Shown one piece after another: positions 1 to 63,597 of a DNA stretch of 64,000 nt. Under the pieces are notes generated by a model. The model saw only the letters and a list, made by a program, of their open reading frames with translations, had not been told where the DNA came from and made no database searches. A program made the position numbers and the translations under genes. Numbering within the stretch: position 1 is the first letter of the stretch; each line of letters starts with the position of its first letter. Where the stretch lies: positions 372,001-436,000 of the forward strand of contig JAQGDQ010000172.1 of NCBI GenBank assembly GCA_030141605.1. The letters are read 5' to 3'. This DNA comes from Tubiluchus corallicola (lineage: Eukaryota; Priapulida; Priapulimorpha; Priapulimorphida; Tubiluchidae).

Positions 1-820
1 TACACTGCTTGACGATGAAAATGTCACTGAAGAAGACAGAAATTCACAGTTCCTCGTGGAACCAGCAGATGTTGGTAAAAATAGGGCACTCTGCTCCGTG
101 GAGAGGACTCAGCAACTGAATCCGATGGTCATCATTGATGCCGACACACAGAATGTCAGCGAAAAAAGTGACCAGTTTTTCCACAATTTCGATGTTGTTT
201 GTCTCACTGGCTGTGTCAAGGAACAGTTGATCCGTGTTAACAATATATGCCACTCACAAGGGATCAAATTCTTTGCAGGTGATACGTTCGGATATTATGG
301 TTTTCTGTTTCTTGACTTATGCCATCATGATTATGTTGAAGAAGTTCGTCATGTTATTACTAAGGATGATAACAGTGGCAGCAAGAAGCAGAAAGTAGAT
401 GAGACCAAACTTGTGAAACGATCCGAAACTTACATTACTTTCCAGGACGTGTTGGAGTTTGACTGGTCCACTCCCAAAGCTGTTAAGGGACTCAAGAAGA
501 CACCGTCGACTTATTTCCTTTGTTTAGTGCTATTGCAGTTTCGCTGGTTGCATGGAAGATTGCCTTGTCATGGGGATCACGACCAACTGCTTGCGGTCAA
601 GCAAAAAGTTTTGGAAGAACTGAAAGTTGACAAGAACATTTTGTCCGACTCATTTGCTGAACATTGTAAAGGTGAACTGAGTCCAGTATGTGCTATTGTT
701 GGAGGCATTTTAGGCCAAGAAATAATCAAGGCTGTATCGTGTAAAGATGCGCCTCATAATAACTTTTTCTTCTTTAATGGTATTGAAGGCAGTGGGCTTG
801 TAGACTGCATCGGCAAATGA
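1..820 (+). CDS. SAE1: SUMO-activating enzyme subunit 1 (AOS1/SAE1), 3' part
   Basis: SAE1 pairs with UBA2 to form the heterodimeric E1 that adenylates SUMO and starts SUMO conjugation, mainly in the nucleus. The frame is open from base 2 to the TGA at 818-820, about 272 residues. It begins LLDDENVTEEDRNSQFLVEP, which corresponds to roughly residue 55 of the human protein, so the N-terminal nucleotide-binding glycine loop lies outside the window. Family hallmarks visible in order are VGKNRA and LNPMV, the IKFFAGDTFGYYGF segment, a basic acidic linker (GSKKQKVDETK), the SPVCAIVGGILGQEIIKA helix and the conserved tail APHNNFFFFNGIEGSG. A GTG at 56 is internal, not the start. More than 800 coding bases carry no intron. 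GOLT1 converges on it from the right. Identification is secure by recognised family similarity. Confidence 0.93.
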   Translation, partial: TLLDDENVTEEDRNSQFLVEPADVGKNRALCSVERTQQLNPMVIIDADTQNVSEKSDQFFHNFDVVCLTGCVKEQLIRVNNICHSQGIKFFAGDTFGYYGFLFLDLCHHDYVEEVRHVITKDDNSGSKKQKVDETKLVKRSETYITFQDVLEFDWSTPKAVKGLKKTPSTYFLCLVLLQFRWLHGRLPCHGDHDQLLAVKQKVLEELKVDKNILSDSFAEHCKGELSPVCAIVGGILGQEIIKAVSCKDAPHNNFFFFNGIEGSGLVDCIGK

Positions 821-2933
821 CGAGCTCTCCAGAATCCACAGGAATATTTGCCTTGCAAAAGCTCAGTTATTGTGTTTACATGTTAACTGTCATCAAGCAT
901 TCACTTTCAGAAAGTAATATCATGATCTAACTAATTACAATGTAAAGCTACTTATTGAAGAGAATTTTGACATTCAATACATATTGCGCTATTATGTAAA
1001 CTGTTGTCCTCATGCATCACTTATAGAATAATCTGCTGCAGTGGCAGATATAATATGTATAATCTGTAATAAGTATAAATATTCAAGTGTATAGGCTATG
1101 CGAGTATACATACACTGCTGAACAGTGTCAGATGAATGGGGCTTATAGTAATTCTTGTGAATGTGTCCTGTCAATTTAAAATACTAACTTGTAAAAATTT
1201 CTGAAAAATGCAATATAACAGCACGAATGTCAAAACAAATAACACATCATTCAGTATGGTATATAAAATTTCAATTGAAACATTTGTCACAGTCTTAGAC
1301 AGATAAATAATATTAATAACATTATTAGTTGAATACAAAATAGGCCATGCCATTTTTGCAAAATACATAGTTGGAAAATGCTTATGAAGTTTATAAACTT
1401 TTGGCAATATTGTAGATTATATGTTCCTATGCCCAGTCCAATAAAGAGAGCTGCTGTACAACCACTAAATAAGCTTAAACATGTAATAACATAAATACAC
1501 GTACTCGCCCACAAAAATAAAAAGTATAAGTACAGTGTACAAAGATGTGTAAAAGTTTTCAAAGCAGTTTTTAAGTGGACTAACAAAACTGCAATTAGTC
1601 AAGCTATAGTAACTTGAAAAGAACATTTTCTGTTACTAAGATTTTTCAGACAGCAAATTTTCTGAAAGTTTTGTCAAGTAGAACTTTCATTTCAATAAGT
1701 AACGAAAGGTGAGCAACAAATTTGCATTAAAATAATCTCACTCGTTACCTAGTCCCAGAATCGTAATTGTAGGTGTTAATTTCTGTAATAAATGAGTACT
1801 ATAAAAATGAGTCACTGAGTTAGACATAATCAGTAATCAGTACAAGACCTATGCCATTTTTTACATATACACAAATTTACAAATCTTTATTGTCCTTTGC
1901 TGCCGTTTTTCTCAATAGGAATCTCAAATTCTAACAAATTGCCCCTAAATGTTGCATTTTCAACATGAGCAACAGTCATCTAAATACATGTTAAAATTTC
2001 TGGGCAGTAAAGTTCGAAGTATAGAAATAGTGTCTTTCATAGATTAAACATATTTTTCGTGTGTGCGTATAGGCCTACAGTGTTGTTTGACTAGCAAACA
2101 AATTTATAATTTTAAGCATAATAGTTGAGTAATACAGTGTTACAAAGATAACAAATAAAAATCCTCCATTCCTGAGGAAGTCCTACTTAAATGTATTATC
2201 GTAAGCCTGAAGTTTTGCTCGATGTACAAAATTAGAATGTACATATTTTTATTATTTCAGATAAGCATGAAATAAAGTAAAGATGCTATGTGTTTTGCTG
2301 GCCCAATTGCGAGTAAAAATGTTAGCAGGGCATTTCTAAATTTCGAAAAACTCGCTTCTGACAACAAAATTCAATGTTATACGAAGCCAGACTGCATGAT
2401 TTTAGTTCAAAGAAAGAAACCTTTTATATCACATTTTCAGTTCTAGTACTAAAAAAAAGTGAGAAAGTAATTCAGATTTCCATTTAATGCATACCCACAT
2501 TATCATAACAAGTTTTAAGAAACTTTTAACCATAAACTAGTGAACTGGTAAAGAACAACCATAATATCTCTGACAAAAATAGCTACAACTGACACCAGCT
2601 GAACTTAATCAGTAAGCTAAATGAGTAGCTGGAAACTCTCCACTTGACTCAACTTTGGCTAATCTACAGCTCAAGCAAAATAAAATTTAAAAACTAGTTT
2701 GTCAGTGTCTGCACTAATAATGCCAAATGGATCACAAAGCTCGTGCAAGTATAGAGACAGTGGAAAATCGTGTGCTTCAGTTTTTCACACATTCCCTTCA
2801 TGACTGCACGGGCATCCAATGTGCATGGCTCATTGTATTAATTCATAAATATTGTCATCTGACATTATTGGCAGATGCAGTAAGTGTCCACCTTGATGCT
2901 AAAAGTGAAAGGCTCATAACGCTTTTTGGAAAA
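821..2933. other. Convergent 3' flanks of SAE1 and GOLT1
   Basis: This AT-rich stretch contains no convincing coding sequence. It should hold the 3' untranslated regions of both convergent genes. AATAAA-type hexamers occur on both strands (for example + strand near 1786 and 2152, - strand at 1886-1891 and 2248-2253), but such hexamers are expected by chance at this base composition. Short ORFs on both strands here are not supported by codon pattern or similarity. Confidence 0.5.
2248..2253 (-). terminator. Candidate poly(A) signal for GOLT1
   Basis: AATAAA on the - strand about 680 bases downstream of the GOLT1 stop codon. Position is plausible for a 3' UTR, but a second hexamer at 1886-1891 is an equal candidate. 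Confidence 0.25.
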
Positions 2934-5900
2934 TTACACCATTGAGTTCGATTCGCCAGCTATCCGATTCACTACCTGCAAGATGTAATACTAGATTGCA
3001 TTGCAGTATAAATCAATCAGAAGCACTACATCATTATAAAAATTCATACATGAATTTTAAAGACATCATTCAAAAAGTATTCCGAGAATCTATTTTGAAA
3101 TTGTTTTAACTTTTAAACTCTCGTGTAAATGCCAAAAAAGTAATCGTGCTGCAGCAGCTCAATCTTAGCAGAAACTAAAGTTATAACTACTAAAATACTA
3201 TTACTATGTAGCTGTTATTCATGCATTTTAATGAAATCCTGAGAACTGTAGCCTGTCTTACAACATACTACAAGTTGCAATAAAATTAGGAATAGATACG
3301 TTACAAATGTAAGGAGATTAACAGGATCAACAGCAATATAAAAATCGAGGATTACCGCCTTTGTTCGTCATATAGCAATATCCACATCATGGAAAACCGT
3401 TGAAGAAGCTGAGTAACAAAGCAGCAGAAGCAAAAAATTATAACTTATATGGTATTTGTTAAGTCACCTGCCACTGTTCAAAAGTGGAAACTGCTACAAC
3501 AATAAGCAAAAGCGGAAATCAAGTTGGTGGAAAATTGATGCAAACATCGAAGTGTCGTGATTTTGCTCCATTACTCATAAAATTTTCATACAGATAGAAA
3601 CAGCTAATGAGCCACTATGCCACACAAATTATTCAAGTTATTTACATTTACTTACTGAGCTTATAAACGGAAAATTGAGAAATGTGCCTATAACAGGTAC
3701 TCTTCGTAAAAAATTAACAGCCACTGGAACAAATCCACTGTAAAAAATAGAAAGTATTTTACTAGAAGTAAGTTTGTTAGCTATTATAATTGAATAATAA
3801 TGTCAAATAAATATTGATAAACAGTCCTAATATTGATAAATATTGAGTAATTCTCCTGAAAGAAGAAAATGCACACAAAAGCTCCCAAATCCTGGAAGGG
3901 TTTTGCCAGTTAATTGCTGCCTAAGGGAAGGTTGTAATTGCTAGGCAAACATAATTCGTAACAATGAACACTTAATGAAAACTGGTATGTGAGTTTCAGA
4001 TAAAGAATAAAACATCAAAAAGATGAGAAAAAATGACACAAATATGGGAGCCATAATAGCGAAAAATTAATAGTTAATAAAAGGATAAGTACAATTCACT
4101 TATTCTTTTAATCACTTTTGCCTTGCAGCTCTCTGTCTTTCTGAAAACTTTTGCACTTCCACAGGTACCCAAACCCAAGACTGTGCTTTTCAGGCAGCTA
4201 TCCTAACCATTACTTACACCACAGAAACACTTGGTTTTTCAGATGCCTTTTTTGTTTTAGGAAAATGAAAAAATAAGCAAAGCCAAAACTCATAAAAAAA
4301 CTTGAGAGTCAAGTGATGGTGAAGAAATCCTTTATATCAGTAATCACACTTTCCAGGCTATGGTGGCTTGGACATAAATTTACAATAAGCTAAGCCCAGG
4401 AGCAGTAAGGGTATTATTTTGGAGAACTACTACTATTTTTTAGAAATAATCAATCTGTAAGCAAATAAAAATGTGGTGGGTTTCTACAGCACAAGAACAA
4501 AAATACACTTTTAGGTGTGATCGTTCAATGAAGGAAGAAAAACAAAATTAAGCAAGTATAAAAAATGCATTTTATGAACGATCACTAATTGTCATAGATC
4601 AAATGTCCTTGAAAAAGAACTGGCATAAAATTTTGTACAAAATATTTGCCACAGAAACTATTGCCTTCCTTACAGACATAGACATTTTATTTATCTCCTC
4701 ATTTACACCAGAATACAAATAGACTATTATTGCTATAGTTATTAATTAAACAGGATAAATTATGCATAAAGGAAAGAGTTAGGGGGTGCAGGAGAAAAGG
4801 TAGCGATTATCTATATTCTGTTATTATCAACATTATTACAGACTGCTATTAGTGACAGTTCTTTCTAGTCATCACTGGTAGCCCGTCCAAAATTGTAATT
4901 AAACAGCATTTTTAAACTCAGAAAATAACTGAGCAAATATTCCTTAAATTCTCAAAAAATGTCCAACAATGGACAGAGCTTGAAATGAAATGTTTTTCTA
5001 AAATATGACAAGAAATAACTAGTTGATCAATTAATGATCAGTAGTTGTTAGCCACTCCATTCTACTTACCTAAATAACAAGAACATTCCGTACAGTTCAA
5101 CACACATGCCAACGACAGGCCAGCCTAGTAGAACTATGAACATTCCAGCAAAAAAGCAGGCTGTAGCTCTTAGCTTATGAGACTGGAAGAAAAACCGCAG
5201 AGTTCGTTCAACTCCAATGACAAAAATTAAGCCTGAGATGAAGAGTATCTAAAAGCATTACAAATAAACAATATTTATTATACTTTGACTTTCACAATAT
5301 ACTTATGAATTGGACAAGAACAGAACAATAATTTGGCGTATCCATATTTTGTTACATCTGACATACATCTGATACACTGATCATCGGAATTTACTATCAA
5401 CTAGGAGCTTGCTTAAAAATTTTTTAGCTTTGTGCCAATGTTGGTTGATAAGATCTGCCTCAACTCCTCAATCACATATTCAAGTCTCATGAATTCCCTA
5501 ATATTCCCAAGAAGAACTCAGTACTACCAGCAAAAGGCAAAAGTATGGTAAATCTGAGGTTCAAAATTTCAAATTGTTTGCCGAGTTGATCCACGTCTTC
5601 ACGAGATTATCGTGACATTGTGATTGAGTTGTGTAATTGCACTACTGCTCTGGAATAGCACATATCATCTGTGCAACATGTGTCTCAGAAACAGGCATTT
5701 TTAATTACTTTTTGTCCATTTAAGCAGGAATGGTTTGTTAGCATGGAACTTTGAAAAACTAATGAAACTAGGCCTTACAAAGTAATACAAATAGTAATTC
5801 TTGAATACAAATCATTCTTAAAAAAGTACAATATTTGCACTTAACATATTTTAGAGTCAGTTCAAGCTGGTCAACAACTGAGTCTCATTTCTTTGATTGG

Positions 5901-6736
5901 TACATATAAAAATAAAGAAATTGTACACTTACAGTACTTACATTTCCTATAGCAAGTAAACCTCTATCAAAGAACATTAAAGTACCAAGCATTAAGAATG
6001 CAATACCAAACCCGGCTAAACCAACTCCAATTTCTGAAAGAAAGAAAGTTGAGCAAAAAACTGAGACAAAACCAACAATCGATAACGGAGCAGTTAGCCA
6101 TGTCCTATCCGTTCAGTCAGTCAGCTATTTAATAAGTTAAATAAGCTAATCAGTAATTTGTCAAATGATTAAAGTAATTAGCAGTGGTGTTTCTAAGATA
6201 TGTACAACTAACGCATTGCACAGACAATCCTCAGAATTTTCTTTGTTTGACAACAATTTTAATATGTATCAAATATTTGAAACTAAGGTCCTAGCTTTTG
6301 ATTTTTCATTAATTACAGTGAACATTTAATAATTAATGAATTAAACATTTACTTAGAGTTGTCTTTATAAAGTACTTATAAAATTAATGTACTAAGCAAA
6401 TAGCGAGATCTAAAAATTAGCTGCACAGTTTAAGCTGATCACTTAAAATGCCTTTGTAATCAGTTAGCTAACCAGTAAATTAGTTAATAAATTAATGAAT
6501 TAGTGCCAATGGGTAATTTTGCCAAAACTCCTGTTTAAATAATCATAAGTTACTTAGTTGATGCAAAACTACTGTTTTGGCATGTCTCTAGCATTCGGAC
6601 ATGTCTCTTAACATCTAGCATAAAAGCTAGAGCAAAACATTTCATTACAGATGTTAATTTACAAACTAAAAGCTTAAGATATGGCCATGCCGGGGCAATC
6701 AAAATACTCACTCTGAAAATCTGTCACTTCAATCAT
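2934..6736 (-). CDS. GOLT1: Vesicle transport protein GOT1 (Golgi transport 1), 5 exons
   Basis: GOT1 is a small tetra-spanning membrane protein of the ER-Golgi system needed for COPII-dependent export and fusion with the Golgi. I rebuilt five - strand coding exons: 6712-6736, 5942-6033, 5070-5248, 3656-3737 and 2934-2975. They join in frame to 139 residues plus TAA; the human GOLT1B is 138. Introns have canonical ends (GTGAGT, GTAAGT donors; CAG/TAG acceptors). Recognised segments are MIEVTDFQKIGVGLAGFG at the start, MFFDRGLLAIGN, FVIGVERTLRFFFQSHKLRA, LLGWPVVGM, the RRVPVIGTFLNFP loop and the conserved terminal GESNSMV. Hydrophobic stretches alternate with short loops as in the family. The start is the only ATG in exon 1 and matches the family N terminus. 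The gene converges with SAE1 and shares its strand with ABHD17, whose stop lies about 0.9 kb upstream. Whether it is GOLT1A- or B-like cannot be decided. Confidence 0.94.
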
Positions 6737-7633
6737 TGTTGTGTTTTTGTTTTCTCATACAAATCTGTAATCACAGTAAATCCTGTTAACAAGTTTACCT
6801 GCCATTTTTAATAATATTGTTCAAAGGCCATGTAGCCTATTACATAAAGGGTATTCCTACGAATGTGAGAACGCAGACAACATATTAAGGGATGGGGTAC
6901 TTTTTGAGACATATCCAGTAATCCGCAAACAAGACTTTTCAACACCAAAACCTAAATGCAAATGTATTAAATTTAAACACATGTCCAGATACAATGTCCT
7001 GAGTGCAATAGCTATGACTTCCACCATTTAACTCGTTTTCACGACTATGCAGGAGCAAGTCTACTTTATAATAGCAACTCTGCTGCAGAATAGAACACAA
7101 ATGCAGCACAAATTTATTAGAAGGTTAACTTTCAATTATGTGCCCCAACTCAAACAGTAAAATTTAGTAAGAAATGGGTCAGCTTTGGCCAGACATGTGA
7201 AATTTGCTATAATAATCCATCTCTTTATCTGACGAGAGCAAAACTAAGAAAAAATTGGCAATGAACTAAAATCATCCGTATGAAGTAAAGGATATTTTAA
7301 AGAAATTAAACAGTTTCTACACATACAGACGCACTCTGTTGTCAAATATGTTCAACTGTGAAACACATAAAACTCAGCATTACACATTATTTATAGATAC
7401 AACTACAAATAATTTTTTACAAATCAGTGTATTAAACATTAAACATTTACACCATACTGGTCTGTATTTAATAATCAATGAATATCAGTTTGAAATCTTA
7501 TTACAAAAAACTACACAATATATACGATACTAAATACATATTTTAAAGCAGAATTTGCAGCTAACACAGTTCCCGTTTGACTGCAGTTACTTTGTCTTAC
7601 TTTTTTATATGGAATCTTTTAAAGTAGCTGCTG
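6737..7633. other. GOLT1 upstream region and ABHD17 3' flank
   Basis: About 0.9 kb without a gene. It must contain the GOLT1 promoter and 5' UTR at its left end and the ABHD17 3' UTR at its right. No TATA box or CpG-rich core was recognised. A 64-codon + strand ORF here is composed of AT-rich low-complexity sequence and is not credible. Confidence 0.45.
7113..7118 (-). terminator. Candidate poly(A) signal for ABHD17
   Basis: AATAAA on the - strand about 520 bases downstream of the ABHD17 stop and before the GOLT1 start region. Position only; chance occurrence cannot be excluded. Confidence 0.3.
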
Positions 7634-8539
7634 TCAACCTACACATGAGGACCAGTTTGGTACCTCAAAATTGACAAATTTTTTTACACGTTCAACATAG
7701 CAGTTAGAAAACTGGACATCAGAGTGCCCAGCTCCTGGTATCCATAGATGTGTTACCCTTTGTGGACATTGCTCGTATATAGTCAGACCATGCGAAAAAT
7801 CAATAACTTCGTCATCTATGCCATGGATAACAAGAACTGGAGAACTCATAATCTTCTGCACTTTATCAATATTTGTAAAAACATCACAGCGCCAAGTGGA
7901 AGTTACGTTAGGAAAAAGTGTTCGTAAACCAGACATCAGTGGACTACATAATATAACACCTGCCACAGAAACTCTTGTTGCAAGATCTACTGTAGGAGCT
8001 GTGCCCAAGCTATATCCACACAGAATAATATCTCTGGGATTAACACCATACTTAGTTTGCAAAGCAGACAAAGCTGCATCAATGTCCAAATATAAATTTT
8101 TTTCTGAGGGTTTGCCACTGCTGCATCCATATCCAGAATAATCATAAGCAAAGATATTGCAATTTATATCACTACCAAAGTCGATATAAAAACTGATCAA
8201 TTGTCCTAGATCAGTAGCATTTCCATGACTGACTAAAAAGGTGTATCTTGAGTTTGTAGTACACCTTATAAACATGCAAACTATTTCATTACCTTCTCCT
8301 GTACGTGCCAAAAACAATTCCACATTCTCTAGCTCCTTTTCAGTATGTCGAAATTCAGCAAAATCGTTCAAAAGGCATTTAAAATTGGGACTTGTTTCTT
8401 TTGGTAGTAATGAGTAGCTTGGTTCTGGTGGGATAAAAGCGAATTTTTCTGTAACTTTTGACGGGCATGGGGGACAACAAAATATGCAGCACATTGTTCC
8501 AAGAAACCCACCACACCGTCCACACATCTTAGGTTGCAA
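7634..8539 (-). CDS. ABHD17: ABHD17-family protein depalmitoylase (alpha/beta hydrolase)
   Basis: ABHD17 enzymes are membrane-anchored serine hydrolases that remove palmitate from proteins such as N-Ras and PSD-95. The intact 301-residue ORF starts with the family's cysteine cluster (MCCIFCCPPCPSK, about residues 16-28), which is palmitoylated in known members and anchors them to membranes. The hydrolase fold follows: SHGNATDLGQ at 104-113 (oxyanion region), YDYSGYGCSSGKPSEKNLY at 132-150, nucleophile elbow GYSLG with Ser177, the acid in IDDEVIDFSHG near Asp242/243, and His272 in GAGHSD. The elbow is GYSLG rather than the GQSIG of vertebrate members. Length matches the family (about 290-310). 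There is no intron, whereas vertebrate ABHD17 genes are split. The first Met was chosen because it opens the frame; Met5, giving MCGRCGG, is an alternative. The A/B/C paralogue cannot be assigned. Confidence 0.93.
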   Translation of the reverse strand: MQPKMCGRCGGFLGTMCCIFCCPPCPSKVTEKFAFIPPEPSYSLLPKETSPNFKCLLNDFAEFRHTEKELENVELFLARTGEGNEIVCMFIRCTTNSRYTFLVSHGNATDLGQLISFYIDFGSDINCNIFAYDYSGYGCSSGKPSEKNLYLDIDAALSALQTKYGVNPRDIILCGYSLGTAPTVDLATRVSVAGVILCSPLMSGLRTLFPNVTSTWRCDVFTNIDKVQKIMSSPVLVIHGIDDEVIDFSHGLTIYEQCPQRVTHLWIPGAGHSDVQFSNCYVERVKKFVNFEVPNWSSCVG

Positions 8540-9790
8540 CCGAGCATTACTGTACTATCAATCTTTTCTGTTTACAGTTTCACTTTCAGCAAATCATATT
8601 TGCAACTGCTCATATTTTTTGGTACAAATTAATTATTTTAGCTGCGTGTTACATAATAAAATTAATTAAAATGCACCAAGTGAAGCATTTTGAGAAAACT
8701 TTATTTTATCAGGAGAACATATAAGATAGAATAAACTTACAATGAACAATGAGAATGCACTGGCATTGTTTTCACGATTTAGATTTTTTTCATGAACAGG
8801 CTGTTATTTCTCATATGTAGCAATACGTTTTATTCATTCTGTTAAGTTCCTAGTAAAAGAATAATCATATCACCACTGAAATAACGAAAACGAATTCAAT
8901 GACTTAACGTCGAATATTACACGTGGAAGTCGCCATTACTGGCTGACGATTTGTTTGAAATGGATTGTACATTGGATTGGACGCATCGCGTTGAGAGGTT
9001 TGGTTGCCTGCGTGCACTCATGTCTCGCTTCAGAATTGTGGTGATTTCTGCGTGAATGGTGATGATGAAAATACAAGAAAATTTTACAATACAATAATAC
9101 GTCGGTTTGCAGTACAAAAAAGAACATTATAGTCTATAAAGACTATTTTCCGGCATAAATACAAAATCCTAGCACCCTAAATTACCTAATTAAAATACAT
9201 TAAACCACTGCAGCCTAGAGAATACTAAATTACAATAGAAGCATACAAAAAAGTTCATTTATAAGATTAAGAGAGAGATGGCTATAAAATTGAGATAAAA
9301 AAACTAGAGTACCTTAAGTAAAGAAACATATCTAGATAATTAAAAATATAATACACACATAATAAAATAAAAAACCCAAACTACATACATAATAAGATGC
9401 ATAATTACAGAAACAAGTTGACTAACGGTACAATTAAGAATCTTCAGTGAAACATAATTATTTACTTGATTAAAGTACATATTTTTGCATTGCTATGATT
9501 ATAAGAAATTTCGTATACAATTAAGACACAAAATTAAATTTATAAAATGTACGAGGTTTAAAATTATAAAAGGTATTTGCAATTAATTTTTACAATAAAA
9601 TATACGGTATGATAAAATATGGGACTTGAATGCAGTATCTAAATATGATTGCGGTTAGCTCTTGAGAAGCTTGAGCAGTAAATGCTGAGCAAAGAATTAC
9701 AAAAAATAAGAACAGAAATGGCACAGAAGAAACACATAACTGAATAAGGACAAAGTGATCAAGCAAGAAGAATAACAAAGCGGTGGAATG
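8540..9790. other. ABHD17 upstream region and A-rich spacer
   Basis: The part next to ABHD17 should hold its promoter and 5' UTR. Around 8920-9060 the base composition is more balanced, with several CpGs, which is the best promoter candidate. From about 9120 to 9790 the DNA is very A-rich on the + strand and low in complexity. No gene is supported. Confidence 0.4.
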
Positions 9791-9799
9791 TATAAAATG

Positions 9800-11900
9800 A
9801 CAATGGAGGCTGGATTAATAAGATTTAAAAGAATTTGGGAATTAAGAAGAAGGGCAGAAAGAAAGAGGAACGTTGCACTATAAGGGACAATGAGAAAATG
9901 ATTAGTGACTGTGAAGAAATAAAAAAATACAGGAACTATTGCAAAGAATTACTTACAATGAAAACAAATTTCTAAAGTTGAAGAAATGGTGAATAAAATT
10001 TTTAAACAAATTGTGAGAACTAGGAAAACAATGAGAAATTAAAGAAATTACAATGGAAGAAACAGAAGAAGCTGTTAAGAATTTAAAAAATGAAAAGCAG
10101 GGGATATGCAAGGGTTGACAAGTGGAAATGATAAACAGATTATATATGTACGACGTGATCTAAAGCAAAGCATATAGTTACATTTTAATAAAGTAAAAAA
10201 TAATTATTATGGAGTTCCAAGTTTGTGGAAAGAAATGAAAATAAAGTCGTTAACTAAAAAGGCGGAAGTAGACATGACATAACTAATAGAAGAGGCATAT
10301 TTTAACAAATGGATTAATGGAGTTATTTGAGAGAACTCTGCTGAAAAAATGAAAATTTTTTAGAAAATAGAATAACACAAAATCAATGTGGTGGACGAAA
10401 AAACATGGGAACAGTGTATCATATATTTACTATAAAAATATCATTTTATAGGCTAACCAAGTAACATATATGGATTGGATAGGAATTTAAAGTGATTTTT
10501 AGATACTTAAAAGTGTTTCAATAAACTATGGCTGGGGGACTGTTTAACTGAAGTATGGCTGAAAGGAATATCACCTGAAGAAATAAATGTGATACATCAT
10601 ATGAAAAAAGAGGGGGAAGCAAAAATTGAGTTACCAGTTGGGGAGGAAACACAGAGGTTAGAATTAAGTGAAATTGCGCAGCAAGGGACAGTCTGGGCTA
10701 CCAAGACTGTGTAGTGTAACAACAGCTAGAATAAATAATGTGGGAGAAAATGTAAATGTGGCTATCGGATCAGAAAAACGAACAAATGCCAAAATAGATG
10801 TTGATGATACCATAGGTATGGGGGAAATGAACAATTGATCAGTATGGCAAAAATTTGTAAATATTTTGAGCAAAAGAAAAATTTGCTTTTAATATTAAGA
10901 GTCGCAGATATTAAAAACAGTTTAAAAGAAGCAAAAGAAATATAAAGAAAATTATACGGCAATTGTAAGAGTAAGAAGCGAATAATTTCTGAAACAAAAT
11001 GGTACAAGTATCTAGGAGATCGGAGAAAAGGTCGGAATTTTGGTAAAAGAAAATTAGTGTGGGGTAACATAAAGAGAGTTGGGGAATATGCTGTGGAAAC
11101 AAATATTACATTTGACTGAGACAGTAATTACACCAAGTGTGATATACAACAGAGAAATTTGAGAGGAAATAACAAAAAAGAGTTAAAGAAAATGGAAAAA
11201 AATATAAAAAGGGATGTTACAAAAATATTTCTACAGAAGGCATCAGCAAGTTATTGCGGAATGTTGATAGAAACAGAGGTCTGGCCAATGGAGCAGCGGG
11301 TAGATTATAAAAGGTTATGTAGTAATGTAATTTACAATCTAGTAAATTCAAAAGAATCTAGAGATGCTTATAAAGCTATGAAAGAGATGTGGAGAAAAGA
11401 AATTAAAAGTGGTTGGACTCAGACTATAGATTGATTAGCAAAAAATATGATTTAGAAATACAAAATGACTATTTTAATACAAGTACAAAAATCATCGTGG
11501 AAAAAAACAAGTTAAAGAAAGTATAAGGAAAATAATAAAAGAAAATGCCGCGGAAGAGATAAGTTTAAAAACAAAGTTAAGATTTCTGCAGTATGAATAG
11601 GACAACCCAAAACACTGCATAATAGACTTAACACCAGAGTAAATAAAATGAGTGCCAGAAATGAAATTAAATTTTTACCACTAAATAATAATTACAAGAG
11701 CTGGTTTAAGATTTGAGGTGTCCATTATTATAAAAAGGAAGAGGATAACAGCGAGCATCTGTTTGATTGTGATATGGCTAAAAACAGTACCAAAACAAGA
11801 AAGAAATTTCCAAGAAATGATAAAGTCAGATGATCCAAAAGTGCTAAGGAAATATTGCTGAAAATAGAGCAGATGGTTGAGGACACAATGAAACAATGAG
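9800..11900 (+). pseudogene. Degenerate non-LTR retrotransposon (reverse transcriptase)
   Basis: A LINE-type ORF can be followed across all three + frames through many stops and frameshifts. In order: a pre-RT linker (RIWELRRRAERK), the RT entry motif ITMEETEEAVKNLKNEK near 10050, fragments around NQCGGRKNMGTV near 10385, the primer-grip-side motif QGTVWATK at about 10679, a catalytic box reading VDDT at 10800-10811 instead of the usual YADD/FADD, and then the clearest surviving block at 11159-11434 (WPMEQRVDYKRL...NLVNSKESR). The C terminus has a cysteine/histidine finger-like remnant (RCP...EHLFDC) near 11715-11775. It is clearly dead. The VDDT box and QGTVW motif are typical of one lineage of elements seen in aquatic invertebrates, by recollection; the clade is not assigned. 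Confidence 0.8.
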
Positions 11901-12642
11901 CACTGAGATAAAGCTCCAAAAAGAAGAATAACGGAAAATAGATTATTTTACAGCAATATTCAGTGCGACACATAAGTAAATTCTTTAGTGCATATTTGAT
12001 TATGTGTCAGAATGCGTGGACACCGAGGAAACCATGAAACAAAGAAAACAGAATGAAAACCAGATTTAGAAGAACCCTCGGTAGCTTTTTTCGCTACACA
12101 CATACATTTGAGCAATCATTTGTCATTTGATCAATTTCACAGTTTCTCTCTTTCTCAAAGTTTTCTATCCTCTCCTTCACTGGCCTGTCTGTTAGAATCT
12201 TTTGTTCATTTGCTCATACTTGTTTCTTTACAATAAACTGTGGAAACTCAATAAATGTGGTTGCTTTATAATTTGTAAGATCGTTTTTCTCATACATGTA
12301 TTTTATTGTGGTATAATATAAAATAATAATCACGTTTTGTAAGGCCTGCTTAATTTTTGTGATAATGTCTTGCATTTATGCTATGCTGTCTGGTATTATT
12401 TAAGTGTTCGTGTTTAAGTGGTCCAAAAAGAAGAATTAATTGAAATGACTAGAATTAACTAACAGAAGTGATATAAAGGCCATGACGAAAAAACTCATAA
12501 TAACACCAGCAATGATAATGACACCAAAGATGTTGATGATGACGATCAATTTCAAATGGAAATAATTTGTGAACTCGATAAAAGCAGCACAAAACAGTAT
12601 AACAGGTAATTTTGCTTACGAGTATCATCTTTATCACCATCG

Positions 12643-12692
12643 TCATCGTCGTCGTCATCACCGTCGTCGCCGTCATCGTCATCATTATCATC
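12643..12692. repeat. Imperfect (TCR)n trinucleotide repeat
   Basis: About 50 bases of alternating TCA, TCG and CCG triplets. They create His/Arg-rich and Thr/Met-rich translations in opposite frames that are not genes. Confidence 0.8.
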
Positions 12693-13844
12693 CATGTATG
12701 TGCTATGACATTACACTTGTTAACAGCATGTACCACTTGTTGACGCCGAGCACTTCTGTAACTGCTTTCGATCCACGCTCCTTCCAATATAGAGCTGTAC
12801 TTTTACTTGCTAATTAAATCCCGTCAGCAGTTGGATTTTCTTGTTGATTTAAGAGCTTGATATTTTCTTATAATGCTGTAGAAAAAAGAGATACCTGGGG
12901 CAACTGTAATGCATGTCTAGGAAAAAATGTAGTCTTCTCATTAGGATTTACTTATTCTATGGGTCTTTATTTACAACGTCATACAAATTATCATTCGACA
13001 TTCTGTCATTCCATTTGATACCTAATATCATTCTCTAGCGACATCTTTGAAAAACCTCTATTTCTTTCTATTGTTAGCTTTTATTGTCTATAGTTAGGCA
13101 ATGTGTAAAATAACAGGTTCAACTGAACTAGAGAAAATCTGTTGTTTTTGAAAACCACCGTGAGATCTGAGTAACAGGCTGTAGGACAATGCTGGAATTC
13201 TCCTCTACATTTTATGTCAGCTTTAATGTCTAACAACCTGAAAACTTATTCCTTCGCCGTTACCAAATATAGGTCATTTTAATCAAACGTAACAGCTTCC
13301 CAATGTAAATCATTCCACTTTCAGGGCACCTGTAAAATAAAACTGGGATTAGGTTTAACCTGCACTTAATGTTGCTGCATTCGAGAAAGTCGAAAGCATA
13401 GAAGTCATCAAAAGATCCTTGGATATCAAATAATGAAATGTGACTGCCATGTAAACACGACTGAATGAATTATAATCCCAAATGCGCGAGTATGGTCGTG
13501 TTTTCACTTCTTATGCCGGGTTCAATGTGTTTCGCTTTTTCCCTTTTTCGCTTATCACGTTTTGGCTCTTACCTCACACCTCGGACTCTTAAACAATCCC
13601 AGCTTTCTTAACCGTATTATTGTCTCTATCACAGGCGTGTACCTACACAAGTTTTCTAATTCTAGCTGGGCTTCCGCGTTTGCATATGCGACAAATTAAA
13701 AAATCTAAAGTCGACGCATAAAAAAATCAGCCTATAGGCCTACATACTCATAGATTCGCATTGTTCCGGATAAAAATGGAGTAGATTAATGCTGAGGACG
13801 ACCTAGCTGCTTATGCCTATGTGCAGTGAAATTGGCGTCGGTTT

Positions 13845-13944
13845 ATTCTCTAAACTTATCCTTTCTTATTTCTTTAAGACTGATATAAATGCTCATTCTC
13901 TAAGCTTATCCTTTCTTATTTCTTTAAGACTGATATAAATGCTC
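13845..13944. repeat. Recent 50-bp tandem duplication
   Basis: Two head-to-tail copies (13845-13894 and 13895-13944) starting ATTCTCTAARCTTATCC differ at one base only (A/G), so the duplication is young. Confidence 0.9.
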
Positions 13945-15357
13945 ACTGCCTACTCTAACTATACACAAAGCAGTACATAAAAATAAATTCGAAATCAGTA
14001 CAGTAATATAATATTACTACGCTCTCATTATACATACCGTACATTGAAAATAATAATAATCATGCTAAGGAACAGTGAATGATGCATAATAATAATTATT
14101 ATTATTAAACTGACAACAATATTTAAAACAATTGGCAAACCTATTTACACAAATGCATTTTACGTAAAGAAGCCTATGGTGTGAATTAGTTGACTTAATA
14201 AAGCGACTAAGTAAGTTATAATAAATACCTACATATTTACACTGTATGCATGAACAATAAATAAATGAATACATACAAAGTAAAGTAAAAATAAATGTAT
14301 GTTGTAAATACGACTATAAATCAGATTATATAACTATAAGTGTAACAAATCGATAATGTTTTGATTAACATTAAGTGATGCATTGTTTTATTTATTGTGC
14401 TGTTTGCCATTAACTTCATCAGTTATATATATCACCCTGTTCTGTTGACTAGAGTAGAGAAAATAATTTCATACGTTTGAAAACTTAGAAAAGAAACAAA
14501 TTACCTGTAAAGAATACACATTGCACTGTATATTCTATAAAACAAATATAATACGAACAATTTATCTCGGTGTATTGCTCGGTGATCATAAATAATTGGC
14601 TAATTTATTTTGAAATTAAGGAGAATATAATATCAATGCTCTTTTACAGAATTTATTTTAAATGCTTAACTTTGCTGTGTTCGTCTCGTGAGAATTATCT
14701 TTTGTGACACGGAAAGTTTAAATTTCAAACGAGGTGCAACAATATAGCCGAATTCTGTTAATAGTATAATACATAGTTCTTTCATGAAGTATTCATGAAT
14801 AAAAAATACGACCTGTCTATACAAATATTTTCGCAATCTAATATGTAGTCTATCATTACTTAAAAAACTGCGTAAAGACAGTAATTTGACTAGAAAGTAG
14901 CTTTGGTGATTATTGTGCAGAAATGCATTATTTAAAGTAATTTAACAAAATAACAACTTAATTTAAAAGTTAAATTGCGTGATGGTATAAAACTTTACAA
15001 TTTATCACACGATAATAATTGCCAGCAATGATGCCTGAAATTCAATGTATTAATATCTAATTAATAAATGTTTCTATTACTTAAATATAGATCTTATACA
15101 CAAGGTACCTATATTACGGCGCATCTTCAACTTTGTACTTACTAAATGTGTAAAGGTGGTACCTATAAGCATATAATTTTACCTCATAATTGGTAGCCCC
15201 ACAACCACAGAAATAAGCCACAGGGATCATTATAGCTATTACTATATAAATTATCGATTCTCATAACACATGTATACAATATAACCCATATGTTCGTCAA
15301 TATTACAGATTCTGTATCAAATTAACAGGAAAGTATCCATAGATATATCTGATTACT

Positions 15358-58573: not shown

Positions 58574-58796
58574 AGGAAGGAGTTTACAATTCCCCACACA
58601 ATTTAAATACACTAACCCTAACCCAACCCTCATCCTGACCCCAACCCTAACCCTAACCCTAATCCTAGCCCTAACCCTATCCCAACCCTGACCCTGACCC
58701 TGACCCTGACCCTGATCCTAACCCTAACCCTAACGCTAACTCCATCCCTAATCTACTTCACGAACTAATTTCTTGTATGCGGGGATTTGTAAACTT
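58574..58796. mobile_element. Telomere-repeat-bearing miniature element, copy 1
   Basis: A 223-bp unit with inverted ends (AGTTTACAATTCCCCACA at the left; AGTTTACAAATCCCCGCA as reverse complement of the right) around an array of CCCTAA and variants (CCCTGA, CCCCAA) at about 58608-58748. After the array comes CTTCACGAACTAATTTCTTG, shared exactly with copy 2. Flanking ACACCTAT (58566-58573) and TAACCTAT (58797-58804) agree at 6 of 8 bases. Confidence 0.8.
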
Positions 58797-59282
58797 TAAC
58801 CTATCCATAAAACCGGCCTGGGAGAAAAGCGGAATAAATTCTTCTTAGGAAGGTGAAACGTGTACTAACTTCAAATTTTACAAGGTTGTAGAAGAGGATA
58901 ATGTCGACAAATATGCAAACTTTGAAGCTTTTGCTTCAGAAGTTATAGTTCTGAATTTGCATTCCACATCAGCGAAACGCTATACAGAGTGTTGAACAGC
59001 ACCAAATGTGGTATGATCATGAATGGCTTCGATGCAGCTAATTGTTACTTACAGGAAGGTTTTTGTCAAGATTTTGTTTAAAATGCGAAGTCACCTATTT
59101 AAACTCTCGTTGCACTTCCGGTATATAGCGGAAATTCATGGCGCTAACGGAAAACTAGTCGTTAAGAGATGATGTAGCGCTACTGAATGCAATTTTTCAA
59201 AAGTGCCAGAGTTTTGTATCTTATTCCGCGAAAATCTAGATGAATCTTTCAGGAAAAGCAAGCTCGGTGACTTAAAAGAGTA

Positions 59283-60290
59283 TTACGATACCCGTTGGGT
59301 TAAGTGACTGTTCGGTTGTAAATGTTACGCGTTCAAATACCCTGAGGTCTTCATGTAAGCCTCCCTTAACCGAACAGACCGGCGGCCTTCACGTAAATTC
59401 ACTTAACCAAGCAGATAGACTGCCGTTTACGTAACCCTAACTTACACGGCGGACTAGTCTATATATAATTTAATTTGAATTTATTTCACATCACATACAA
59501 ACAATAAAGACAAACGTTCATATAATACAAATGTTTACATAAAAATCATCAAATCAATGATGTGGGGAGACGCTGAGAGCCAAAATTACCTACTTATAAG
59601 CGCCTATCCAAAAGTAAAAATCTATTTATGTCTACAGCATCTAATCTAGTTTTGAAAAGTTTTGTGGTCTGCGCTGTTACAAGTGGAAATCCATTTACTT
59701 GTGCGGGTTAGCTATTCCAGATAGGGACAACCCCGTTCGAAAAAGTCGCCAAAACCTTTTTTCAGTACGTCTAACAAAGAGTTTGAGTGAATGGTTACTT
59801 TTGGTTTTGTTGGCAATTGCTTTAATAAAAAATTTTTTTAACCGAAGAGACTGACGAGTCTTTACGTCTTTAGGTCTTGATAGATTTTCGCGTAAAGCTC
59901 ACTTAACAAAACTGATTTACAGATCTTACCTCGCTTAACCAAAGAGACGCGTAGGTCTTTATGTAAGCCTCGCTTAACTGAACAGACTGACAGGTCTATT
60001 CGTCTGGAGTCTCACGATATCTGTTTGGTTAAGTAAAAGCTCGGTTGTAAATATTGCTTAATCAATACTGAGGTCTTCCCTCAAACTTTGCTTACACAAC
60101 AAACTGGCAAGTCTTCGTGTAAAATTCGTTTAACCTTACAGTGTTACAGATCTTCACGTAAACATCGCTTAACCGAACGGACTGAATGGTTTTTAGCTAA
60201 ACTTGGCTTAACCAAACAGACTGACAAGTCTTCACGTGAATTTCGTTTAACAAAATAGAGTGACAATTCTTTATCTGATTTCGCTTACGT
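59283..60290. repeat. 39-bp minisatellite with higher-order structure
   Basis: Repeated units of about 39 bases with consensus near CGCTTAACCAAACAGACTGA then CAGGTCTTCACGTAAACTT. Two adjacent units around 60168-60245 are clean. A longer motif beginning ACGATAYCYGTTKGGTTAAG occurs at about 59283 and 60011, suggesting a higher-order unit. A LINE fragment splits the array. Confidence 0.85.
59457..59838 (-). pseudogene. 5'-truncated LINE fragment inserted in the minisatellite
   Basis: On the - strand the frame VPIWNS, then LPAQVNGFPLV-like, FKTRLDAVDINRF is the terminal motif of many LINE ORF2 proteins (WNSLP...FKxRLD). It is followed by a 3' UTR and a short A/T tandem tail (AAATTCAAATTAAATT) at the low-coordinate end. 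One stop interrupts the WNS motif. The minisatellite resumes on both sides. Confidence 0.7.
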
Positions 60291-60517
60291 CCTATTTTAA
60301 GTCCTATTTACACCGTGCGCTTCTAATGCATGAATCAGACGCATACGTTCCGATTCTGACGCATGGTAAGCAGAACGCAAAAAGGAAGGTGGAAGGAGGA
60401 AAGAAACAGTGTCAACGCAGGCATCACTGTGAACTTAAACCTGCAAAGTAAACTGGCAACAGTGACATCGATTAAACAAGATCGCCATGTGGGATTTGGC
60501 TTTATTGATTTTTGAAG

Positions 60518-60552
<35 letters not shown>

Positions 60553-60585
60553 CGCGCGTGCGCGCGTGCGTGCGTGCGTGCGTGC

Positions 60586-60633
<48 letters not shown>
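60518..60633. repeat. (GT)n/(GC)n microsatellite
   Basis: About 115 bases of GT with a central GC/GT-alternating part, capable of Z-DNA. It gives a His-Thr-rich antisense ORF that is not a gene. Confidence 0.98.
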
Positions 60634-60636
<3 letters not shown>

Positions 60637-61293
60637 GTAAATCATTCAATATGTTTAATAAAGTAAATATCATTTTGATTTAAATCGATTATTTAGATCA
60701 TTTAAATTAACACTTTTAAATAATGTCTTTTAATAATGCGAATTTTCATTTGGATGATGCAAAGAACGCATTCGTCTTGGACCCCCGTCTAGGACGCACT
60801 GTGTAAACAGGCTCTTACGTGGACTAGTCATATCAGACTAAATATGATATAATGCTATTTGTATCCACTTTAACCTTTTAGAATAATTATCACACAGTCA
60901 ATATGCATATAATGTGACCACATCAAAAATGCATGATTCGGCATGGTAGTTGACTGCATACCAATATTCCATTATAGGAAAATTAACCTCATCAAGAAAT
61001 CAAACAATTACAAACTGAGTGCTCGGAGCTTTGTGTTGCAGCATATTATTATTCAGAAATGGTACATTATATTGATTTGAGTTGGATTAATTTGCAATTG
61101 TAGTAAGAGGATTCATTGTCCGTTGCCACTAGTTACTTGTATTGTGTTGATGAAAAATAAACAAAATGTGAGTTCATATGTAGTCTGAGCAATTTATTAT
61201 TGCCCTAAAAACGAAAATTAAATAACCGCTGTAAATGTTGAATTTTAAACTGTTTTAGATTTATTAATTTAAAAGAATCTTTACGTAGGACTA
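60634..61293. other. Spacer without recognisable features
   Basis: AT-rich, no supported feature. Confidence 0.35.
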
Positions 61294-61747
61294 GCGGTGA
61301 TCAGCAGTTACCATGCTTTACCGGTTTTCGGGGCTTAACTGGACCTCCACATGGCTACCCAATAGCTAAGATGTGAAACTATTCTTGTGAAATAGTTTTT
61401 CACCTGCTTGATGTTTCGGTCCAATCGTATCATAAGAAGTGTTGCTTTTCGTTAGATGACTGGAATGATGTCGACATCTTGAAACGTTGTGCTTTGCAAC
61501 TAGATGAGCATGGCTCGTATGTTTTATGTGCAGTCTTTTCGATTGGCTAGCTAATTGCTTCAACTGACCCTTGATACGTTCATTACCTTTAAAGGATTCT
61601 ATTCAGCTTGGAAGGAGTATAGTGCCACTGCTGGGGTAATGGCAGCATAGCAGAATAGTCAGCTAACAGCTTGAGTATAGGGGCGCCACGTGAAGGGTTC
61701 GGTTAAGCTCCGAAACACAGAAAAACATGGTAACTGCTGATGACCGC
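61294..61747. mobile_element. 454-bp element with inverted ends
   Basis: The terminal 22 bases are inverted repeats with a single mismatch (both contain ATCAGCAGTTACCATG), and similarity continues inward through GCTTAAC for about 50 bases. A block just inside the left end (GTGAAATAGTTTTTCACCTG) recurs, diverged, outside the right end near 61780. No clear target duplication and no coding capacity. Confidence 0.6.
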
Positions 61748-61789
61748 AGACCTTGCCTTATTGCAGCAATTAGAGATTTCTGTGAATTT

Positions 61790-63467
61790 GTTTTCCACCT
61801 GCGCGGCGTTTTACATTTTTCCTCTTTAAAAACAGTCAATAATCAGAATTCGAATCTTGCCATTGCTCTCTGACGGTCACATAGGTCTCCTGTTTTCTCC
61901 TTCCATCCTTGCATTTAATACCATGTATAATTAACTCTTTCTCTTGTCTGTTGTTTCTCTCTCTCACTCTCTCTCTCTCAGACGTAAAATCTAAGAAAGT
62001 ATAGGCGGGTTAGCACTGTGTTATGGTTTGTTTGTATAAGCAATGTGCAAATAAATACTATTTGCTTAAATACCAGACACGCTATAAAATTACGGAAAAT
62101 TTATTACTTCTTAACATCATAAAAATAATGTTTTACGAAAATTTATAAATCGCCAAGCATAAAACAGTAGAACACATTAGCGGAGGAGGTGTGAAAATTC
62201 GGTACTAAGTGGTAAAAAACTTGGACAAAATTTTAACATTTCTCGAAATTTTAATAAAATTTCATTTAATGTGATATTTATCGTGACACAGTCTTGCATC
62301 TACATATCTTATAAATCTTATTAGTAAAAATTGTTGTCTGGCGAATACATCTAATGAACGTGGATTATTGAATAAGACGTCAATACGTCTTGCATCAAAG
62401 TTACAAACTCTAGCTAGATTTTTGGCACATACTAACAGAATTTACCTAATTCAGTAAAAAAAACGGAGCATACAAAAACGTGTAAGAAATTCAGTATAAT
62501 TTTGTATCGCAAGCTTAGTTTTTATATTAGCCGTTATAGAAAGGCCAGTCGTCAATCAAGATAAATAGTTATGTAGTAGAGTGCCGGACGAAACCAAACG
62601 CTAGACTAGTTCCCTCCCTCCTCTATGTGCGTTTGCAGAAATATATCAAGTTTTATTTTAATTGCCTGCTTTTTTCTTATAGCCATGCCCCGTTCAAAAC
62701 TGAAGTAGCGCAGTCAACATGTATACGACACTATACATTTGTCAATTAATGTGTCAATACATGCACAGACTGAAAGCTAATCTAGGAAAAAACAACCTAA
62801 CAAACGTCCATTACACTTAGCATAAAGTAATTACCAATTTTACGTTCACTTGAGATGCTGTTATCCAATTTTGTCTCTGAAATATCCGAAGATTTCTGAA
62901 ACAGAAAATTTTTAACATCAACTTGGATTCGAAAATGCGTGATGTCACTAAAGTAGAAGTAGCCTTCTTATGCGGAGGTAGTTCTCACTAGCTACCCAAG
63001 ACCTACAACCTAGATTGCTTTATCCTGTAAATTATCAATTGTTTTTTTTCTATCAAGAACATTAATAATTGACCACCAATGACCTTAAAAATGTTCAAGG
63101 CAGTCCAGACAAGGTTGCATGTCAGAACCGGACACAATATGTTGCAGATTATTTACCATCAATATTCGGTTCTTATCCAGAAATAGTCTAGCTGAGCTAT
63201 CGAATGGTAGATTCTTAAAATATCTCTTTTTTAATGATTTTGTTACGTTTATGAGTGCTTAGAAATCGTAGATCTTTCAGCACTGCTATTGACCAAGTAA
63301 AACATTACAGGTTTTAAGCATTACTTTTTAATTTTTTAGTTGTAAGCGCTACTCATTTGATCCAGACAATTTAAACGAAATTTCAATCTGTAAATTGTTG
63401 CTTGTCACAATTTAATTGTTCACTGGAAACAAATCTAACTAAATCCATGTTAATTGGCGTGTTCACA
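61790..63467. other. Spacer with a short CT run
   Basis: Contains a CT-rich run at about 61955-61980. No gene or element is supported. Confidence 0.35.
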
Positions 63468-63476
63468 CATACACTT

Positions 63477-63588
63477 GAGAAGGAATATACAGTTCCCCAC
63501 ATGCTCTAAATACCCTAACCCTAACAAAACCCTAACCCTAATCCACTTCACGAACTAATTTCTTGAAGGTGGGAATTGTAATCTTGAG
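63477..63588. mobile_element. Telomere-repeat-bearing miniature element, copy 2
   Basis: A 112-bp relative of the element at 58574. It has the same end motif (ACAGTTCCCCACA; ACAATTCCCACC as reverse complement of the right), a short CCCTAA array (about 63512-63540), and the same CTTCACGAACTAATTTCTTG block. It is flanked by a perfect 9-bp direct repeat CATACACTT at 63468-63476 and 63589-63597, which shows insertion as a unit. Confidence 0.85.
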
Positions 63589-63597
63589 CATACACTT

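Follow-up and report, generated by a model that had tools for sequence, protein, structure and literature searches.

The genome of Tubiluchus corallicola harbors a dispersed family of short elements that carry a degenerate, telomere-like CCCTAA core between conserved ends, and this family is very probably a non-autonomous cut-and-paste DNA transposon, i.e., a miniature inverted-repeat transposable element (MITE). Two of its copies lie in the window, by which we mean the whole 64-kb stretch analyzed here (contig C969:372001-436000), taken from an assembly of 343.5 Mb in 2,344 contigs. They are located 4.9 kb apart in the same orientation, have common ends and contain an identical 20-base block, CTTCACGAACTAATTTCTTG, which occurs nowhere else in the window even with three mismatches allowed (0.02 further sites expected). 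Common ends and an identical block had already been claimed in a preliminary description of this DNA, and both are borne out. The array lengths of 223 and 112 bp given there, in contrast, come close to the full element lengths of 227 and 113 bp; the arrays themselves measure about 146 and 31 bp.

The family was characterized from a sample of 42, consisting of the two window copies and 40 stretches fetched from the assembly, of which 39 were search matches and one (L048) was a chosen neighboring stretch. Eight of them with one or both ends missing (L010, L013, L015, L018, L027, L031, L036, and L048) and three with the same flank as another copy (L034, L035, and L042) were left out. The 31 unique copies kept (114–742 bp) are the basis of the consensus and of the duplication counts. 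The consensus reads GGAAGGAGTTTACAATTCCCCACACAATTTAAATA, then the CCCTAA tract, then TCCTAATCCGCTTCACGAACTAATTTCTTGTGTGTGGGGAATTGTAAACTTTAGCC. Terminal inverted repeats (TIRs), GGAAGGAGTTTACAATTCCCCACACA...TGTGTGTGGGGAATTGTAAACTTTAGCC, delimit the elements; they are imperfect, about 26–28 bp long and of the form GG(AAGG or CTAA)AGTTTACAATTCCCCACACA, also written GG....AGTTTACAATTCCCC. Inside the element, the tract is bounded by AATTTAAATA at the left and by the CTTCACGAACTAATTTCTTG block at the right. Left ends deviate from the consensus at 6.8% of positions, and the left end of copy 1 at 0 of 35.

The genome-wide search for further copies that the preliminary description had proposed returned the block at 397 sites with at most one mismatch (199 forward, 198 reverse), compared with none for a reversed control pattern. 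Copy 1 used as a query gave at least 58 matches, with 40 of 1,337 first-look candidates scored. A profile of the ends, applied to 200 kb of sampled sequence, recovered three clear further copies (L061, L062, and L063). This sample comprised twenty 10-kb stretches at regular spacing on seven contigs with a known copy. Extrapolation from these stretches, which are not random draws and lie on copy-bearing contigs, yields ∼5,000 copies (Poisson range ∼1,000–15,000), and the element is probably present in thousands of copies genome-wide. Searches of viral contigs and prokaryote genomes with the exact block, and of phages with copy 1, gave no match.

Target duplications were counted with the element boundaries set at GG...CC and with 930 swapped flank pairs as the control. 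Across the 31 unique copies, similarity between the two flanks of a copy shows a fixed peak at exactly 8 bases. At least seven of the eight bases match in 10 copies (perfectly in three) compared with 0.43% of the swapped pairs; with two bases of slack, the numbers are 17 of 31 copies and 2.8%. Copy 2 had been credited with a perfect 9-bp duplication. An exact 9-base word does flank this copy, but the duplication comprises only 8 bp: because the family peaks at exactly this length, we prefer to count the ninth base, a C, as the final base of the element. Shared words of at least 8 bases near two random places of the window occurred in 0.19% of 20,000 trials, and those of at least 9 bases in 0.06%.

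The same orientation of the window units and their distance of only 4.9 kb could also point to a segmental duplication instead of two insertions, and elsewhere in the family common flanks are indeed found, namely in L033/L034/L035 and L041/L042, while on contig C1977 a copy lies together with its flank in an inverted duplication. When copy 2 and its flanks were used as the query, however, all 40 other scored matches (of 619 candidates) fell within query positions 671–806, i.e., the element plus a few bases; the flanks had no match near copy 1 or elsewhere among these candidates. The joined flanks of each window copy found only their own site. Since the matches of copy 2 are confined to the element, we rejected the idea that the window pair arose by segmental duplication, consider its probability negligible, and conclude that the units were inserted. 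The sets with the same copies and the same flanks (L033/L034/L035 on C2264, C2138, and C1787; L041/L042 on C2055 and C1198) look like alternative, unmerged haplotypes or duplications.

Insertion is also documented by empty sites. Ten pairs of joined flanks were prepared and eight of them searched, with 40 of 285 candidates scored. Two copies, L017 and L047, turned out to be inserted in other dispersed repeats, and related repeats are continuous across the junction: in all seven relatives fetched (four for L017, three for L047), the alignment is unbroken and the target is present only once. Empty sites were thus seen for two of the eight copies tried. Taken together, common ends without common flanks, both orientations, the 8-bp duplication, and empty sites in related repeats support a spread of the family by transposition, as had been suggested. 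Both findings named in advance as speaking against it, a lack of further copies and flanks common to copies, were looked for, and neither holds for the window pair.

Based on its short length with paired inverted ends, the fixed length of the target duplication and the high dispersed copy number, we file the element as a MITE, i.e., a non-autonomous TIR DNA transposon, and assign it to no superfamily, Merlin included. Since copies of 114–742 bp are filled by their ends and the repeat core, a transposase gene would probably not fit into them. Its GG termini, 8-bp duplications, and inverted ends of at least 24 bp resemble those of Merlin elements, which the available text of one source defines by terminal 5′-GG, target duplications of 8 or 9 bp and inverted ends of 24–462 bp (PMC8101967). 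The assembly contains seven loci of a Merlin/IS1595-type transposase. At a resident Merlin (L069; C2335:84509-84928 with flanks), a Merlin-type transposase lies between GGGTCAAGACAAG inverted ends (GGG...CCC) and, as in our family, the duplication is 8 bp long (ATAATCTT, perfect as read by eye). Zisupton/KDZ, hAT, and P elements are other transposons that duplicate 8 bp of their target; the GG termini of the family are presumably unlike the ends of hAT and P.

An autonomous partner was sought at sites showing the end pattern without its usual next base. There are 28 such sites in the genome, and 14 of them (including L046) were read: 13 proved to be family copies, and the one on C4 is a solo end that lies within a local palindrome, next to a copy of the family. 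A pair of inverted ends ∼11 kb apart on C1977 (L105, C1977:37660-37800; L106, C1977:48610-48760) was considered as a long transposon and rejected, as it reflects a single copy that was duplicated, together with its flank, in inverted orientation.

Several observations weigh against a cut-and-paste transposon. Copy 1 retains no clear target duplication, and 14 of the 31 copies, including copy 1, show none at seven of eight bases even with slack. Right ends are quite variable (16.6% off consensus), and the partner end was not recognizable in 7 of the 39 matched stretches. For six of the eight copies tried, only filled sites were recovered (for L033 on three contigs) and no allelic empty site. 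Moreover, no helper transposase with family ends was found, either at the seven Merlin loci, none of which bears such ends within ∼1.5 kb, or at the 14 of 28 end-only sites; a Merlin helper may have been lost or be missing from the assembly.

If the family is a MITE, a transposase encoded elsewhere would act in trans, recognize the imperfect inverted ends GG....AGTTTACAATTCCCCACACA, excise the element, and reinsert it at mostly AT-rich sites, thereby generating the 8-bp target duplication. The CCCTAA tract between AATTTAAATA and the CTTCACGAACTAATTTCTTG block would move along with the element. Local tandem duplication, presumably by slippage or unequal exchange, would lengthen or shorten the tract and leave private higher-order periods in the long copies.

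The length of the core differs between copies. In copy 1 the array is degenerate, with seven exact CCCTAA words in a 137-base core obtained by fixed trimming. Long cores show private higher-order periods of 24 bp in L017 (self-match 0.91), 30 bp in L012 (0.82), and 23 bp in L009 (0.79), and we therefore read core growth as local tandem duplication within each copy, not as repeated telomerase action. CCCTAA is the telomere repeat of most animals. This exact identity and the retention of the hexamer in the family consensus point to a probable telomeric ancestry of the core. Alternatively, the transposon could be real and its core an ordinary microsatellite of hexamer units, similar to a telomere in appearance alone, which we consider possible but rather doubtful; the degeneracy of the cores agrees with it, as do perfect arrays of at most ∼110 bp among the matches listed and the fact that terminal arrays were seen on none of the contigs. 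It is improbable that the core is retained for a function instead of being a passenger, for example because it binds protective or positioning telomere or G-quadruplex proteins or seeds telomere addition at chromosome breaks, the family then serving as a genome-wide seed store. Treated as single-stranded DNA, copy 1 has a folding energy within the usual range.

How much of the interstitial telomeric DNA belongs to the family was estimated from the exact 30-base pattern (CCCTAA)5, which has 108 overlapping matches in the genome. The 100 matches listed fall into 21 loci; two of these, L014 and L027, were already available, and the other 19 were retrieved for this count. Family ends are present at nine of these loci (L014, L027, L077, L079, L080, L084, L086, L088, and L090), in four cases supported by weak scores only (12–19 bits), and small extra stretches revealed ends for two more, L076 via L097 (40 bits) and L082 via L096 (15 bits). 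At least 11 of the 21 listed perfect-array loci thus carry a family end. No such end was found at seven (L078, L081, L085, L087, L091, L092, and L093), and at three (L083, L089, and L094) the array runs off the fetched stretch; by eye, L094 resembles another copy of the L076 locus. In the 200 kb sampled, a telomeric tandem of 12 bases was present at a single locus, L063, which belongs to the family. The proposal that interstitial telomeric sites in this genome are largely such elements is therefore moderately supported, with at least 11 loci in its favor but seven without an end; it is plausible, not settled. Transposition has thus brought a good share of the telomere-like DNA to its positions within the chromosomes.

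Some of the seven loci without a family end, such as L078, L085, and L093, may instead be interstitial telomeric sequences produced by telomerase or double-strand-break repair, like the vertebrate TERC-ITS. For the units described here, we regard such an origin as very improbable and rejected it for the family, whose non-telomeric ends and block are constant, whose target duplications measure 8 bp, and whose cores are degenerate and internally re-duplicated; its copies have ends but not flanks in common, and empty sites exist.

A different arrangement is seen at L091 (C1672:1550-2250), L092 (C1672:47250-47950), and L081 (C850:20150-20850), where near-perfect CCCTAA arrays lie in a stretch without family ends. 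On C1672 (49.4 kb), this stretch occurs near both contig ends in inverted orientation with 99.8% identity over 617 bp and an unbroken array of 96 bp; the C850 copy is 98.6% identical over 648 bp, and its array is broken once. The stretch could represent an inverted repeat that belongs to a large element, either mobile or viral.

Table 1. Parts of the two element copies in the window (window positions).
Feature	Sequence	Position	Strand	Length	Remark
Copy 1, element		58575..58801	+	227 bp	flanking duplication decayed
Copy 1, left TIR	GGAAGGAGTTTACAATTCCCCACACA	58575..58600	+		identical to family consensus
Copy 1, telomere-like core	CCCTAA (degenerate; includes CCCTGA)	58610..58755	+	∼146 bp	
Copy 1, conserved block	CTTCACGAACTAATTTCTTG	58756..58775	+		identical in copy 2
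Copy 1, right TIR		58776..58801	+		
Copy 2, left target duplication	ATACACTT	63469..63476	+	8 bp	
Copy 2, element		63477..63589	+	113 bp	
Copy 2, telomere-like core		63513..63543	+	∼31 bp	
Copy 2, conserved block	CTTCACGAACTAATTTCTTG	63546..63565	+		
Copy 2, right target duplication	ATACACTT	63590..63597	+	8 bp	

Between the two copies, the window contains a degenerate 39-bp tandem repeat at 60083-60271 (AAACTTCGCTTAACCAAACAGACTGACAAGTCTTCACGT) and a pair of 52-nt inverted repeats at 61294-61345 and 61696-61747, 83% complementary and 350 nt apart, which is possibly another MITE. Other inverted pairs are found at 37587-37662/38526-38601 and 52474-52534/52610-52670. A scan of the window for RNA families and tRNAs found none. 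ThiF, Got1, and α/β-hydrolase domains were found among the window genes, which we judge to be of animal type. The ThiF-domain gene at 2-817 (+) and the α/β-hydrolase gene at 7634-8554 (−), which we take to be ABHD17-like, each occupy one long open frame, and this therefore suggests few introns in the region.

Telomeric repeats at interstitial positions are usually interpreted as traces of a chromosome fusion or of a repaired break. In the present genome, telomere-like repeats are carried by a mobile element, with block sites confirmed in the hundreds and an estimated thousands of places reached. In T. corallicola, spots in fluorescence in situ hybridization or motif counts need not signal fusions, and TTAGGG-counting assays could give values that are too high. 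For the study of array growth and decay, the family provides numerous arrays of telomere type, each with a separate insertion event.

Tandem arrays inside mobile elements are also known from Helitrons, which insert without target duplication. That our element is a Helitron-type satellite carrier moving by such a different mechanism is very unlikely given its TIRs and 8-bp duplication. Among such carriers are Pearl and Cg_HINE of oysters, which, according to the available text, likewise hold tandem arrays between conserved ends and disperse satellite-like DNA, but are non-autonomous Helentrons with longer units (∼160 bp in Pearl) (PMC7492417). Tetris of Drosophila virilis (PMC4079207) and the minisatellite MITE of Porphyromonas gingivalis (PMC4596501) share the short size and the internal tandem array of variable length as far as their accessible descriptions go; judged by these descriptions, our family is set apart by an array of telomere type (CCCTAA) and appears to have no sequence relationship to them. 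The vertebrate TERC-ITS share telomere-type repeats within chromosomes, but the available text has them inserted at double-strand breaks, and its authors argue against the involvement of transposons (PMC8537989), whereas here a transposon is the vehicle and ends and block are constant across copies. No description of a TIR transposon with a telomere-type core was found in the accessible parts of the open-access literature, a weak negative with subscription papers and Repbase outside its scope. Mobile elements that carry satellite arrays are thus already known, and the telomere-type core in a TIR element appears to be new.

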